Shown: positions 53,431 through 59,343 of the stretch, piece by piece
How the letters are laid out: the number at the start of each line of letters is the position of its first letter
Numbering within the stretch: position 1 is the stretch's first letter
NCBI GenBank assembly: GCA_017302135.1
Contig: JAFLDZ010000004.1
Span: forward strand, 1-64,000
Source of the DNA: Lysobacterales bacterium
GTDB lineage: Bacteria; Pseudomonadota; Gammaproteobacteria; Xanthomonadales; Xanthomonadaceae
Length of the DNA: 64,000 bases
Direction of reading: 5' to 3'
Notes under the pieces: model-generated
The model's database searches: none
What the model was told of the DNA's origin: nothing
Seen by the model: only the letters and a program-made list of their open reading frames with translations
Made by a program: the position numbers and the translations under genes

Positions 53431-55053
53431 ATGCGCATCCTTCGCACGTGCTTGTTGACTGTTATCGCGCTGACCTGCGGGGTGCAGGTCGATGCCGCCC
53501 GCCGCACGGACGCGTCCTCCGCCGGATCGGCTGCCGGGGCACCGCAGATCATGATCGGCCGATTGGAACTGGAGTGGGGCGACCCGGACGCGCAGGCCAA
53601 GGCCAGCGATGGGCCCGGCGGGCAGTTCCGCGCGACCCTGGTCGACGATACCGGTGTGCGTCGTGCGCTCGATACCGGGCAAGCGCTGCAGGCTGCCGAA
53701 GATCTGTATGCGCTCTACGGCCGCCGCATCGCGGTGTCGACCGTGCCGGCCGCTGCGAAGTCGGGCGGTGCGCGCGCTGCTCAGGTCCGCGCCCGGCGAA
53801 TCGATGCCATCGTGCCGATCGATGATCTTGTGGACGATCGTATGAAAGCCTCCGTGCCCGGTCGCGCACGCGCTGCCGTGCACAGCGATGAAGCCGTCGC
53901 CGGCGTCACCAGTTGGGTGACGTTGATGTGCAAGTTCAACGATATCGCCACCGAGCAGAAAACCCTGGCTTTCTTCCAATCGCAGTACGGCGGCGCCATC
54001 GGCCAGTTGGATCATTACTGGCAGGAAGTGTCCTACGGCAAGATCAATCTTGCCGGCAGCGATGCCTACGGCTGGGCCACGCTGCCGTTGCCGCGCGGCG
54101 ATTACGTCACGACCGATACCAACGGCAAGACCACCGCCAATCTCACCCGACTGTTCGAGGACTGCACCGCTGCGCACGACGCCAACGTGAACTTCGCGAT
54201 CAACGGCGGCGTGCAGGGCGTGAACATGATGTTCAATGGCGATCTCGACGGCTACGCTTGGGGCGGCAGCCGCTGCGCGACGCTCGATGGCGTCAACAAA
54301 TGCTGGAGCACCACGTGGAATCCGCCGTGGTCGTTCGGCAACCTTGCGCCGCTCTCGCACGAGATGGGTCATGCCTACGGTCTGCCGCACGCCAACAACG
54401 CGGACAACGACTCCGACCCCTACGACAACCCATGGGATGTGATGAGCGATGCGTGGAGCAATGCAGTCGGCAATGCCACCTATGGCTCGCTGCCGAAACA
54501 CATCAACATCTACTCGCGCAATCGTCTGGGCTGGGTCGTCGACGCGCGCAAGCTCACGGTGACCGCAGGTGCGCCCGCGCGTTCGATCGCGATCGATCGC
54601 GCCAGTCTGGCCGGTTCGACGAATCGACAGATGTTGATTCTCAACTATCCCGATCAGGCCAGCCGCTACTACACGCTCGAAGTACGCAAGCGCGGCGGCA
54701 ATTACGAGAACCGCCTGGCCGGCGACGCCGTGATCGTCCACGAAGTCCAGACTTCGCGGAAAGAACCTTCATGGAGCATGGATGCGGACACGCCGCCCGC
54801 CAATCGCGCCAACAACGAAGGCAGCATGTTCAAGGTCGGCGAAACCTGGGTGTCATCCGACTATGCCTTTCGGGTCACGGTGGATGCCCAGACTGTCGAG
54901 GGTTTCGTCGTCACGGTGCGTCCCGGTCCGCGCAAGAGCCTGCCCGGCCAGCAGGTGCAGTCGCCTGGCACCGCCAAACCTGCCGCAGCCGCGATACCAG
55001 CAGCCGATCGCCACGGCCTTCGCGGCGTCGCTGCGTTCGAAGGGCGCCGGTAA
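53431..55053 (+). CDS. Secreted zinc metallopeptidase (M6/gluzincin-like)
   Basis: A 540-residue secreted protease. A signal peptide (about 1-22) and an N-terminal pro-region precede the domain with HEMGHAYGLPH (His310, Glu311, His314, His320) and YDNPWDVMSD downstream as Met-turn candidate. WQEVSYGKINLAGS and MMFNGDLDGYAWGGSRC resemble M6/immune-inhibitor-like peptidases. A beta-rich C-terminal domain and a Pro/Ala-rich tail follow. The ATG at 53431 directly precedes the signal. It probably degrades extracellular protein. Confidence 0.85.
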   Translation: MRILRTCLLTVIALTCGVQVDAARRTDASSAGSAAGAPQIMIGRLELEWGDPDAQAKASDGPGGQFRATLVDDTGVRRALDTGQALQAAEDLYALYGRRIAVSTVPAAAKSGGARAAQVRARRIDAIVPIDDLVDDRMKASVPGRARAAVHSDEAVAGVTSWVTLMCKFNDIATEQKTLAFFQSQYGGAIGQLDHYWQEVSYGKINLAGSDAYGWATLPLPRGDYVTTDTNGKTTANLTRLFEDCTAAHDANVNFAINGGVQGVNMMFNGDLDGYAWGGSRCATLDGVNKCWSTTWNPPWSFGNLAPLSHEMGHAYGLPHANNADNDSDPYDNPWDVMSDAWSNAVGNATYGSLPKHINIYSRNRLGWVVDARKLTVTAGAPARSIAIDRASLAGSTNRQMLILNYPDQASRYYTLEVRKRGGNYENRLAGDAVIVHEVQTSRKEPSWSMDADTPPANRANNEGSMFKVGETWVSSDYAFRVTVDAQTVEGFVVTVRPGPRKSLPGQQVQSPGTAKPAAAAIPAADRHGLRGVAAFEGRR

Positions 55054-55418
55054 CTCGCTGAATACCGGGCCCGAGAAGGCTTTCCGGATTGCCTGCGCGC
55101 GAGCCTACTGCGCGCAATCCGGGGCCTCGCGGTGAACCTCGTTCGATCGACGATGGTGGCAATGCGGCAGGGCTGGTTTTCCAGCGCCGGACATCCGGGA
55201 ACAGTAGAAAGCGGCGAGGGCGTGCCTTTGAGTCCCGATCCGGGCCGTGCCCTGCCCATTATCGGCATCAATGGATGCGCCCGGTGACGGTGTGTCCGGT
55301 GATACCGTCGAACTGCCCGGGGGGATTCCTGGACGGGCGTCGAATCGTTAGCCCCGCTGCACAGACGAGTGCAGCGTTGCTAATGCCATTGTTTATGGAA
55401 CATATCAAGGAGAAACCC
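55054..55418. other. Intergenic gap with no gene seen
   Basis: There is no credible coding sequence, RNA or repeat in these 365 bases. The frame of the following gene is open from 55089, but this part lacks homology and a ribosome site. A well-placed AAGGAG at 55407-55412 precedes the next ATG. Confidence 0.6.
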
Positions 55419-55892
55419 ATGTTGAAGCAATCGTCTTATCAGCCTTATCTGTCTGCGGCCGTCCTGCTCTGTGCGTTGATCGCTAGCCCGTTTGCAAGCG
55501 CCGCGTGCGGTTGCCCGGACGACGGCCACGGCTCACCGATCGCTGTGCCGGTTATGGGAGGGGCTGGGCTGGGCGAATCGTTCCCACCGACCGTCGATGT
55601 GGCGCCCGACCCGACGTGGCAAGTCTATGAATTCGCGCGCGATGGCATCCGTTACGTCCAGATCAACGACAAAACCGGACGCGTCAGAGCCGCAGTCGGC
55701 CGAATCGACAGCACGTTCTGGGTGTTGCCGATCGGCAGCGATGTGGAACGTGTATCGATCTCGGCCGAAGCCTCGCAGATAGCCAACAGCCGCCTGATCT
55801 ACCGGTCGAACGAAGTCGAGGTCCTGTCCTACCGCAGTGGTAACCAGGACCGCTGGATCATCCGACAACCCGATGCTGCTTCTGCTCAGTGA
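55419..55892 (+). CDS. Secreted small hypothetical protein
   Basis: A 157-residue protein with a signal peptide (about 1-31, ending FASAAC). After it, CGCPDDGHGSPIAVPVMGG is Cys/Gly-rich. The rest is beta-like, including VYEFARDGIRYVQINDKTGR and GRIDSTFWVLPIGSD with WIIRQPDA at the end. The family is not recognised. The ATG at 55419 has AAGGAG 6 bases upstream. Its last seven bases overlap the convergent MASE1-like gene end. Confidence 0.6.
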   Translation: MLKQSSYQPYLSAAVLLCALIASPFASAACGCPDDGHGSPIAVPVMGGAGLGESFPPTVDVAPDPTWQVYEFARDGIRYVQINDKTGRVRAAVGRIDSTFWVLPIGSDVERVSISAEASQIANSRLIYRSNEVEVLSYRSGNQDRWIIRQPDAASAQ

Positions 55893-57418
55893 AGCGTCGA
55901 TTCCGCATCCACGGGCTCGGACAACAACATGCTGATGCGATTGAGATGGCGGCGCCTCACGGCGCCGCCATGCGCTTTGACCCGGCCTTCCAGTTCCATG
56001 GCGGCGAGCAGTCCGCCCTGACTGTGCTGTAGATCCGCATCGGCTGTCGGTTTCGCGATCACGAACACGGCGATCCCGCGTTTGCCGCCGTAGCGCCAGA
56101 CTCTTGTTTTTACGGTGTATTGTTCCGGATCGCATTCGGACAACAGGGCGAATGCATTGCACACGCATCGATAAGCGGCCAGTTGAAGATCCACTGTCAA
56201 TCGTTTGGGTTGACCGCGCAGCTGATAGCGGACAGTGGTTTCGTTCGCCCAGAAATCGGTGAATGCTTCGGCGTTGAGCACGGCATACAGACCCTGTGCC
56301 TCGATGCGCATCGGATACAGCGCCAACGCCTGTTGATCGAACAACCGGGCATGCGCCACGCCGCGGCTGTTCAGGTCCATCGCGGCCTCGAAGTGTCGAT
56401 GCTGTTTCAACCATTCCACCAGGTCGTCGCGGTAGTCATCGAGGCGCAGCTGCATTTGCGCCATGTAGATCACCTGGTCGCGCAGCTTGCTCTCGCTCGA
56501 CAGGAAGCTGTTCTGCGCGAGCAGCAGCGCCTCTTTTTCGGCGACACCCGCAACCCGGGCCTTGTCGAAGAGGTCAGAAATCACGGTGCCGAGCATCAGC
56601 AATCCGGTCGCCGCGATCGCCAGCGCCTGCTGGGTCACGAAAATTTCGGCATCGTAGGTGCCGGGCGTGTTCATGTAGGGGATTTTCATGGCCGTGACGA
56701 TATTCACGGCCAGGATGCCGATGGCAGCACCCCGCCAGCCATGCCGGAACGTCAGGCCGACGACCGGCAGCAGCATCAGCATCAGCAGGCCCTGATGGAA
56801 TGCGGCCTCCAGCGCCGGGACGGCGGCGACGCAATAAAGCGTGAAGATTGCCGCGCCGGCGATGAGGGTGTCGCGAACGGCATGTCTGGGTTTGATCTGC
56901 CCGTTGTTTCTGCCGAGGAACAACAGCACAGGCAGCGCCACCATCAGGATCCCGAGATAGTCCCCGACCGAGAACTTGTAGAGATTGGCGAAGGACACCG
57001 AAGCTCTTGGGCCGTACAGACAGTAGTTCAGGATCATGTTGGAGATGGACGACCACACGGCGATCGAAAGCGCCGCCAGCGGGAGCCAGCGCGTCTTGTC
57101 CTGGTCGGTTTTGAATTTGTTGCGCAGCAGCAATGCCAGCGACGACACCATGGGCATCAGCAGGAACGGGCTGAGATAGGCCCAGAGCGCGCTGTACTGC
57201 TCCGCTTTGGGGACCCGCATGACCAGCAGCGCAGCCGCATCGCCGGCGAACAGGTAGGGCCAGTAGCGATAAGGCACGAACAGCAGCGAGACCGCGCGGA
57301 GGCCGGCGGGCAGATACCACTGATCGAACGACAGGCACCAGGCCCCCAGGAACGAAGCACAGTAGGCCGCGCTGAGCACGAGGCCTTTGGCTGTGTCACT
57401 CCATTTGGCATCTTCCAT
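55886..57418 (-). CDS. MASE1-like membrane sensor with degenerate histidine-kinase ATPase domain
   Basis: A 510-residue protein. Eight or so hydrophobic helices (about residues 15-300) with LSFDQWYLPAGLRAVSLLF and YRYWPYLFAGDAAALL resemble the MASE1 sensory domain. A coiled coil (about 305-350, LLAQNSFLSSESKLRDQVI) links to a C-terminal part that follows the NarL-type kinase layout: LQLAAYRCVCNAFALL stands where the N box should be, GIAVFVIAKPT near the D box and MELEGRVKAHGGAVRR at the G2 position. The phospho-acceptor His and key ATP residues are not seen. It may sense a signal without kinase activity. Confidence 0.65.
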   Translation of the reverse strand: MEDAKWSDTAKGLVLSAAYCASFLGAWCLSFDQWYLPAGLRAVSLLFVPYRYWPYLFAGDAAALLVMRVPKAEQYSALWAYLSPFLLMPMVSSLALLLRNKFKTDQDKTRWLPLAALSIAVWSSISNMILNYCLYGPRASVSFANLYKFSVGDYLGILMVALPVLLFLGRNNGQIKPRHAVRDTLIAGAAIFTLYCVAAVPALEAAFHQGLLMLMLLPVVGLTFRHGWRGAAIGILAVNIVTAMKIPYMNTPGTYDAEIFVTQQALAIAATGLLMLGTVISDLFDKARVAGVAEKEALLLAQNSFLSSESKLRDQVIYMAQMQLRLDDYRDDLVEWLKQHRHFEAAMDLNSRGVAHARLFDQQALALYPMRIEAQGLYAVLNAEAFTDFWANETTVRYQLRGQPKRLTVDLQLAAYRCVCNAFALLSECDPEQYTVKTRVWRYGGKRGIAVFVIAKPTADADLQHSQGGLLAAMELEGRVKAHGGAVRRRHLNRISMLLSEPVDAESTLH

Positions 57419-57549
57419 TGCTTTCCCCTAAGTCCTTGTACCCGGACGAGCCCGATGGCGCTCAGATATGTGCGCTTTCCCTATACGCTATTCGCATAAA
57501 AGAACGGATTCGTCAAATCCGGGCATGTCCGGGAGCGCGCCAGGCAAGT

Positions 57550-58215
57550 CTACAACGCGCCGAGGACGGCACCGAAAATTTTGAGGTTCGGCAGCTCGGA
57601 GGTTTGTACTTCCGTGTACTCGGCGTCTTTGCCGTAACCAAGAACCAGCCAATGGTCGCGGCGTATCAGGAGCCGGCGCACATCGGGGCGGCCCCAGAGG
57701 GAATAGGCGTAGGTGCCGCCATCGACGACCTGGTCGTGCTGCGTGGCGGTGATATCCACCAGTACCAGCGCGTGCCGTTCGATTTCGGGTTCCATTGCGT
57801 GGGAAGGCTGGAAGGTCCAGCGCACTTCCTCGATCGCGGTCAGGCCGATCTTCCGTCTGGCCAGGAAATCCGGCAACAGGATCCGGGCGGGTCCCTCGGA
57901 ATGCCCGAATTCGATGAGCCGTTCGATCGTGACATGGTCCACAGGCGATGCGCCCGTGCGAGCTCCAAGGGACGGAGTCTTGTGCGGCGGCGTGTATCCC
58001 GCATGCAGCAAGCGCTCATAGCCTTCACTGATGCGCTCAGGCGCGACGCCCAGCAGGGCGGCGATAGCAACGGCTCGTTCGGCAGGGATCGGTCGTCGGC
58101 CCGTCCGCCATTGCGACACGTTGTTGCTTCCGACCCTGGCATGCGCGGCCACGGTGATATTCCGGGTACCCGTGCTGTCCATCGCTTCCGCGAAGGCGCG
58201 TGCGTATCTGTCCAT
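57550..58215 (-). CDS. XRE/S24-type repressor with altered catalytic site
   Basis: A 221-residue protein with a CI/LexA-like layout. The N-terminal HTH (about 20-65, AAHARVGSNNVSQWRTGRR, with IPAERAVAIAALLGV) is followed by a linker and an S24 peptidase-like domain (about 120-221). In the place of the usual SM-EPT motif it reads PSHAMEPEIERHALVLVDI, with Ala in the catalytic Ser position. RRLLIRRD stands where the Lys is expected. It is therefore probably non-cleaving, controlled by ligand or protein contact. It is transcribed toward the MASE1-like gene. Confidence 0.7.
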   Translation of the reverse strand: MDRYARAFAEAMDSTGTRNITVAAHARVGSNNVSQWRTGRRPIPAERAVAIAALLGVAPERISEGYERLLHAGYTPPHKTPSLGARTGASPVDHVTIERLIEFGHSEGPARILLPDFLARRKIGLTAIEEVRWTFQPSHAMEPEIERHALVLVDITATQHDQVVDGGTYAYSLWGRPDVRRLLIRRDHWLVLGYGKDAEYTEVQTSELPNLKIFGAVLGAL

Positions 58216-58479
58216 GCGGTCATCCTAACGGAATTCAGGATTTTGAGTACTGGCGCTGGAACTTTAGATATTGACATGAAAAATAGCAATGCTATCTTTC
58301 AAGTCGCGCCGTATTGCAGCTTGATGCGCCATTTGTCTGCAAGGCAGTTCGTACGCAATGGGGTGGGGGAGATCGACGGCAGCCACGACGGCTTGCCGGG
58401 AGGTTCGGGCCGACAGAACGATCGCCGACCCGAAGCCAAGGGGCTTACCTGCATGGTGGTATCACAAGGGAGGTGCAGC
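58216..58479. promoter_or_regulatory. Divergent control region between the S24-type repressor and the CsrA-like genes
   Basis: These 264 bases separate divergent genes. A relatively AT-rich stretch (58235-58300) contains GATATTGACATG, with TTGACA at 58268-58273 as a -35 candidate and TATCTT at 58292-58297 as a possible -10 box 18 bases later. Near 58467-58474, AAGGGAGG precedes the GTG start and also resembles the GGA core bound by CsrA, so autoregulation is possible. No coding sequence is seen. Confidence 0.4.
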
Positions 58480-58884
58480 GTGCTGATTCTGACGTGCCGT
58501 GTCGGCGAAACCATCCGCATCGGCAATGATTTGAGCGTGACCCTGCAAGACCGCTGCCGCGGCCGCGTCACGGTCAGCGTCATCGGGCCGGTTGAGGCCG
58601 ACCTCTACTTCGACAACGTGTGCATGAGACCTTCAGTGCTGCCCAGCGGTGCGCGGTCGTATCTGTTCTCGATGCTTGCGATCCGGCGTTTCCGGGTCGG
58701 CGAGATCGAGATCAGGGTCTGGTTGCCCGGAGATGCGGTTTCGCTGGCGGCGGAATGCGACGAACATCTGCATGTCGGTGTCATTGCTCCGAAGTCCTTG
58801 CAGGTTTCCTGTGAATCGAAAAGCCAGGATGTCCGCCAAGCCGCGGATTCGACTCATGCGTTGTCCGGCCTGGTCTGGGCCTGA
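58480..58884 (+). CDS. Fused double-CsrA-like protein A
   Basis: A 134-residue protein built from two CsrA-like units. Unit 1 (1-46) starts LILTCRVGETIRIGNDLSV, as in CsrA strand beta-1 and its turn, and ends with RVTVSVIGPVEADLYFD. Unit 2 (61-112) has YLFSMLAIRRFRVGEIEIR and ends HLHVGVIAPKSLQVSCE. The key beta-5 Arg of CsrA (in HRE) is missing in both units. The GTG start at 58480 has AAGGGAGG upstream. It is 12 bases from a paralogue with the same layout. RNA binding is doubtful; a regulator or decoy of its neighbour is possible. Confidence 0.65.
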   Translation: MLILTCRVGETIRIGNDLSVTLQDRCRGRVTVSVIGPVEADLYFDNVCMRPSVLPSGARSYLFSMLAIRRFRVGEIEIRVWLPGDAVSLAAECDEHLHVGVIAPKSLQVSCESKSQDVRQAADSTHALSGLVWA

Positions 58885-58896
58885 GGTCATCACGCC

Positions 58897-59343
58897 ATGC
58901 TCATCCTCAACCGCCGCGTCGGCGAAACCATCCGCATCGGAGACGAGATCTCCGTGACCGTCTACGACAAACTGCGCTATCACGTCACGATGGGTGTGAT
59001 CGCGCCGTCGAGTGCCCGGTTGTTATATGGAGACGCGTGCCTGCGCCCCGCGATTCTTCCCGACGGTGAGCGCTTTTACCTGATTTCACTGCTGACGTCG
59101 GAAAGCTTCCGCATCGACGATGTCGAACTCAACGTCAACTTCACGCCCTCCTATCTCGGTGCGGGGCCCACGCGCAAGCGTCAGGTGCGCATTGCGGTAG
59201 CGGCACCGCAATCGGTGGCGGTGCATCGCGAAGAAATCTATCTTCGCCGCTTGGAGCTTGCCGGAAAGCGCTGCCCGCCCATGCCGTTCTCGACCTGGCT
59301 CCGCCAAGCCAATCTGGCCGTATCCAGCCGCGCAGTCGCCTGA
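58897..59343 (+). CDS. Fused double-CsrA protein B with one preserved RNA-binding face
   Basis: A 148-residue protein of two CsrA units. Unit 1 (1-46) has a complete N-terminal half, MLILNRRVGETIRIGDEISV, but a changed beta-5 (ARLLYGD). Unit 2 (60-118) has a changed beta-1 (YLISLLTSESFRID) but a textbook second half, RQVRIAVAAPQSVAVHREEI (95-114). In the CsrA dimer the RNA site combines beta-1 of one chain with beta-5 of the other, so this single chain would keep exactly one working site. A C-terminal tail of about 30 residues follows. It would bind GGA motifs in mRNA leaders (inference). Confidence 0.8.
   Translation: MLILNRRVGETIRIGDEISVTVYDKLRYHVTMGVIAPSSARLLYGDACLRPAILPDGERFYLISLLTSESFRIDDVELNVNFTPSYLGAGPTRKRQVRIAVAAPQSVAVHREEIYLRRLELAGKRCPPMPFSTWLRQANLAVSSRAVA

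Follow-up and report, generated by a model that had tools for sequence, protein, structure and literature searches.

Single-chain double CsrA proteins in a phage-associated cassette of Lysobacteraceae, one of them with a single predicted RNA site

As a rule, CsrA exists only as a symmetric dimer. In the window, as the whole 64,000-nucleotide stretch of Lysobacterales DNA analyzed here is called, two neighboring genes had been described from their letters alone as each encoding two CsrA-like units in one chain. This raises the question of whether these chains are indeed built of two CsrA units, how many RNA sites such a chain would keep and what role the two proteins could play. The genes, A and B, lie on the same strand and are separated by 12 bp:

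58480 to 58884, plus strand: gene A, single-chain double CsrA of 134 aa with a GTG start, predicted not to bind RNA (C6, no R44)
58897 to 59343, plus strand: gene B, single-chain double CsrA of 148 aa with an ATG start, one predicted RNA site (R6 + R111)

In B, the Pfam CsrA family (PF02599) is matched in two stretches (E 4.5e-18, 65.4 bits against a cut-off of 27); unit 1 comprises approximately residues 1–50 and unit 2 approximately residues 58–122. In A, the same family is recognized in the first unit only (E 3.2e-6, 27.4 bits, cut-off 27). Unit 2 of A, which has no direct Pfam match, can nevertheless be called CsrA-derived because it is homologous to B: the two proteins align over B residues 2–112 with 41% identity (E 8e-22). 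The equivalog models TIGR00202 and NF002469, which describe one-unit CsrA, are missed by B (65.8 vs. 70.1 and 65.4 vs. 73, respectively) and also by A (28.1 and 30.3, under the cut-offs). When a profile of the B family was compared with solved CsrA chains, CsrA residues 1–23 fell on B 1–23 and residues 25–58 on B 92–125; by sequence, B is most CsrA-like at the beginning of unit 1 and at the end of unit 2. Elsewhere, this genome contains an ordinary one-unit csrA gene (G000:C1:307144-307299) as well as a second A/B-type locus at approximately C1:262615-263427.

The AlphaFold2 models of both chains contain ten strands, i.e., two β1–β5 sets of five, with a mean pLDDT of 87.4 for B and 82.2 for A. 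The β1–β5 arrangement with a helix, typical of PF02599, is present. In a structural comparison, residues 58–122 of B can be superposed on CsrA 1vpz, covering 56 of its 57 residues at 1.6 Å (38% identity, Z 4.6), and the superpositions with 2bti and 5z38 are similar. The preliminary description had stated that a second half without the CsrA fold would speak against it; as B 58–122 superposes on 1vpz, this situation does not arise. A Foldseek search against the PDB returned no significant match (none at E ≤ 0.001). For A, the list of aligned structures contained no CsrA chain, which is evidence in neither direction. The presence of two CsrA-like units in each chain is therefore borne out by the Pfam matches, the homology between A and B and the predicted fold.

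As whole chains, the A and B models (window 57550–59343) also show a likeness to FHA-type sandwiches, with Z 5–7 and 8–11% identity. An origin from an FHA domain was rejected: such Z values are within the common range of the tool, and the sequence evidence favors CsrA.

The RNA sites of the CsrA dimer are each formed by β1 of one subunit and β5 of the other, with L4 and R44 as the critical contacts (PMC7652899). The two halves of these sites were followed in 19 non-identical relatives of B, most of them 40–58% identical to the window protein, and in 14 relatives of A. In unit 1 of B, the β1 half is conserved (R6 in 19/19, L4 in 17/19, R7 in 16/19) and the β5 half is degenerate, R44 being found in a single relative (1/19). 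In unit 2, the reverse is seen: R44, E45 and E46 are each kept in all 19, and the β1 half has lost both R6 and R7 (0/19 each). The RNA contacts of PF02599 (R44 and those of β1) are hence all present in B, but they are split between different units of the chain. In A, the R6 position is occupied by a cysteine in all 14 relatives and R44 is absent from every one of them, so that the contacts of the family are missing; instead, A shows a different set of invariant residues (C6, R69, F71 and H98).

From this conservation of half-sites, B is predicted to be a single-chain pseudo-dimer with exactly one RNA site, and A to have none. The pairing of β1 and β5 would then take place inside one chain. Both patterns had been noticed in the window proteins, namely the β1 of unit 1 and β5 of unit 2 kept by B with the opposite pair degenerate, and the loss of the HRE arginine from both units of A. 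They hold across the 19 and the 14 relatives, and at the residue level a half-site pattern known from a single example becomes a rule.

A third double-CsrA protein, paralogue C, is located between A and B in L045 (5580-6476), in L055 and in several phage contigs, and is fused with A at this genome's second locus (L006:4572-5375). In the copies read, its sequence has a cysteine at the R6 position, and an arginine is kept near the R44 position. Other loci are reduced, with A alone (L044, L048, L056, L057) or B alone (L049, L053). A B copy next to an Rhs gene (L058:5722-6087) has neither the β1 strand nor the cassette described below, and looks decayed or recombined.

A and B are not isolated genes but the divergent arm of a conserved cassette with the order SEC, MASE1, XRE, then A and B:

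55419 to 55892, plus strand: SEC, small conserved protein of 157 aa with a signal-like N-terminus, convergent with MASE1
55886 to 57418, minus strand: MASE1-domain membrane protein of 510 aa
57550 to 58215, minus strand: XRE regulator (Cro/CI-type helix-turn-helix) ending in a degenerate S24 (LexA/CI-like) domain, oriented divergently to A

No Pfam kinase domain was matched in the C-terminal part of the MASE1 protein. The window, this genome's second locus and, except for L058, the other sufficiently covered loci of the genus share the same cassette order, and the MASE1 proteins of the cassette copies are down to ~31% identical. A known defense system was considered and rejected, as none of A, B, XRE, MASE1 and SEC matched the PADLOC models of known anti-phage defense. 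The sister genome G013 (L040) conserves both a short perfect hairpin (GCTGCAC-N6-GTGCAGC) and the sequence GTTAGCC that lie upstream of SEC (window 55345–55405).

The two-unit layout was sought across the Lysobacteraceae and was found in one genus, where relatives of A and B scoring well above ordinary CsrA, full-length or partial, occur in 10 of 11 genomes; one genome (G089) has five such loci. None occurs in the other genera of the family sample. A scan of genome contigs has, among the matches listed, an A/B-type locus in Lysobacter sp. ACE_PRO74 (a MAG, L059). With the B profile (E 1e-12), no two-unit CsrA was found among the 397 other genomes sampled from the order or the 368 from the class, two samples that overlap in part, and no frame with two CsrA hits is among the matches listed for 200 genomes of the phylum. 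The two-unit chain is likewise absent from 50,697 phage and 72,556 plasmid records, where the matches cover at most one CsrA unit.

The cassette has been inserted next to trpG. In six sister species (G137, G061, G204, G115, G189, G172), the site is empty and a metallopeptidase gene lies ~200–250 bp from trpG. In the window, where the metallopeptidase gene ends near 55050, and in the sister G013, the cassette lies between these two genes and measures roughly 4.5 kb, an approximate size since the flanks are too diverged to fix its ends.

The cassette also occurs on virus contigs. Eight contigs from IMG/VR contain it together with the B gene, and four of the eight (L164, L165, L171, L166) have phage structural genes (head, portal, tail, tape-measure). 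A major head protein is encoded just past SEC in L164, with a homologous gene in L165; the L165 record includes portal/adaptor and internal virion proteins too. Siphophage tail and tape-measure genes are found in the L171 record, and L166 has a block of ORFs matching those of L171 in lengths and order, as judged from the ORF list only. A scan of the virus contigs with the A profile confirmed nothing, though the contigs found with B do contain A. Furthermore, over 20 additional virus contigs (L294–L328) have MASE1–SEC pairs, often with XRE, but without a double CsrA, and in L276, a locus from the same taxonomic order, the XRE–MASE1–SEC genes adjoin phage-tail-like genes. From these contigs, it appears that an older phage-associated module acquired the double CsrA genes in one lineage. 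A convergent MASE1–SEC pair with neither XRE nor CsrA genes was also seen in other genera of the family (L269–L274, L277, L278).

The gene downstream of B usually encodes an effector of antibacterial type, on the same strand and mostly less than 2 kb away (up to ~3.5 kb). Rhs proteins of one homology cluster occupy this place in nine loci (L006, L041, L042, L043, L046, L047, L054, L058, L166); nine of fewer than 30 loci is judged to be far above their genome share. XVIPCD proteins, which carry the Xanthomonadales antibacterial T4SS signal, are encoded in L164, as a homologue in L165, in L054 and at the second cassette of the L165 record, and Tle1-like lipase proteins in L167, L168, L170 and L171. 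In the window copy, the sister copy and the A-only and B-only copies, housekeeping or stress genes take the place of the effector. Downstream of B in L045 (2783-4882) and L055 (2818-4926) is a 700-aa protein to which no family was assigned, possibly another effector. In Xanthomonas citri, binding of host CsrA to the leader of the antibacterial T4SS operon represses this operon (PMC7286519), a precedent within the family for the control of such weapons by CsrA. By analogy, B could possibly control the effectors next to it.

Two leaders of the window cassette contain GGA-type sequences:

57424 to 57435, minus strand: two GGA motifs (57433–57435 and 57424–57426), 6 nt apart, in the MASE1 leader
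58464 to 58473, plus strand: CsrA-site-like sequence ACAAGGGAGG, including AAGGGAGG at 58466–58473, overlapping the Shine-Dalgarno sequence of gene A

The second of these had been pointed out as a possible autoregulatory element. AAGGGAGG is present as reported, and similar sequences recur in other lineages: ACA-N0-2-GGAG precedes the first CsrA gene in 8 of 11 A lineages (hand count) and other called genes in 7 of 158 cases, of which five are XRE or MASE1 genes from these cassettes themselves. It resembles the CsrA consensus RUACARGGAUGU (PMC7652899). Its position before A is consistent with autoregulation, without being proof of it.

In the MASE1 leader, GGA pairs 2–6 nt apart occur in 15 of the 18 lineages linked to CsrA, compared with 8 of 219 background genes (p 1.8e-15), figures in which related copies are not fully independent, background start codons were called crudely and the motifs counted partly coincide with Shine-Dalgarno sequences. 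After de-duplication, they follow the presence of B: 15/16 lineages with B vs. 14/45 without it (p 1.6e-5), the latter made up of 7/21 chromosomal copies, 6/21 de-duplicated phage copies and 1/3 A-only lineages. On the phage contigs alone, the figures are 7/7 with B and 6/21 without (p 0.0014). Stable hairpins presenting the GGA motifs were looked for in the leaders, with no convincing result. A two-site CsrA dimer bridges GGA sites 10 nt or more apart (PMC7652899), whereas the spacing here is shorter, 2–6 nt, and would suit a one-site protein.

These sequences could also be read without B. The GGA pairs and ACA-GGAG would then be DNA operators or simply strong Shine-Dalgarno sequences, and B would act on other messages. 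They do overlap the ribosome-binding region, and AGGAGG itself contains GGA. Such an explanation nevertheless seems rather doubtful, as GGA pairs are rare in the other genes, less common in the leaders of MASE1 genes without B and seldom found in the XRE and SEC leaders of the very same cassettes.

It is unlikely that A and B act mainly by protein contacts, for example as antagonists of host CsrA, XRE or MASE1, with the site of B being a remnant or binding something else. R6 and R44-E-E are kept in 19 of 19 B relatives despite their divergence, which argues for continued RNA binding, and the GGA pairs track the presence of B. Such a role would fit the conservation of A, with its own invariant residues, despite the loss of its RNA contacts, and also the occurrence of A without B in four loci. 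Finally, that A and B are decaying, functionless csrA copies in a degenerate prophage remnant is very improbable: unit 2 of A is under Pfam detection and the L058 copy has lost its β1 strand and its cassette, but the open reading frames are intact, residues are invariant and the gene order is conserved across divergent copies (~31% for MASE1) and phage contigs.

The reading considered probable, with some reserve, is that of a phage-associated sensor/repressor cassette with its own one-site CsrA, in which A and B are natural single-chain pseudo-dimers. The fusion of two CsrA units would have let one of the two RNA sites decay. Each B chain would bind a single GGA element and would not bridge two, and A may serve as a non-RNA-binding partner or an antagonist. 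MASE1 would sense a signal, the XRE protein would control the intergenic promoters and B, perhaps together with host CsrA, would repress the translation of MASE1 and A through the GGA sites over their Shine-Dalgarno sequences. The cassette, and possibly the adjoining effector genes, would thus be silent until triggered. A further-reaching proposal, put forward tentatively, is a phage-borne switch: a fused one-site CsrA and its RNA-blind twin would set a membrane sensor and the adjacent effectors, independently of host CsrA or in competition with it. The cassette also ties a relative of CsrA to antibacterial effectors borne by phages within the Lysobacteraceae, a family in which host CsrA (Xanthomonas) restrains an antibacterial secretion system.

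In comparison with the CsrA/RsmA homodimer (E. coli CsrA, P. aeruginosa RsmA, P. fluorescens RsmE), A and B share the five-strand unit and the family PF02599, and B also the contact residues of β1 and β5; GGA-type sequences over the Shine-Dalgarno of the likely targets are a further common feature. B differs in having two units per chain, one predicted site instead of two, a location in a mobile cassette and a predicted-dead paralogue, A, adjoining it. RsmN/RsmF of P. aeruginosa is likewise a rearranged protein of the CsrA family; it forms a dimer whose fold is rearranged (PMC3791407) and, unlike A and B, is not a tandem fusion, and its match here in sequence and fold is only weak. CsrA homologues on mobile elements have been described in Pseudomonas phages and, as RsmQ, on plasmids (PMC9928087). 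They are mobile like A and B, but the matches obtained here span at most one unit. A search of a literature collection with few subscription papers found no paper on natural two-unit CsrA chains. A functional parallel lies in mixed CsrA dimers with one R44A subunit, which have one functional RNA pocket per dimer in the account of Mercante et al. 2009 given in PMC7652899. It is with such mutant mixed dimers that the dependence of CsrA function on two linked sites has been probed. Those are laboratory mutants, whereas B occurs naturally as a single chain whose one predicted site is conserved throughout its family; if B is indeed a natural one-site CsrA, the two-site question becomes directly testable.
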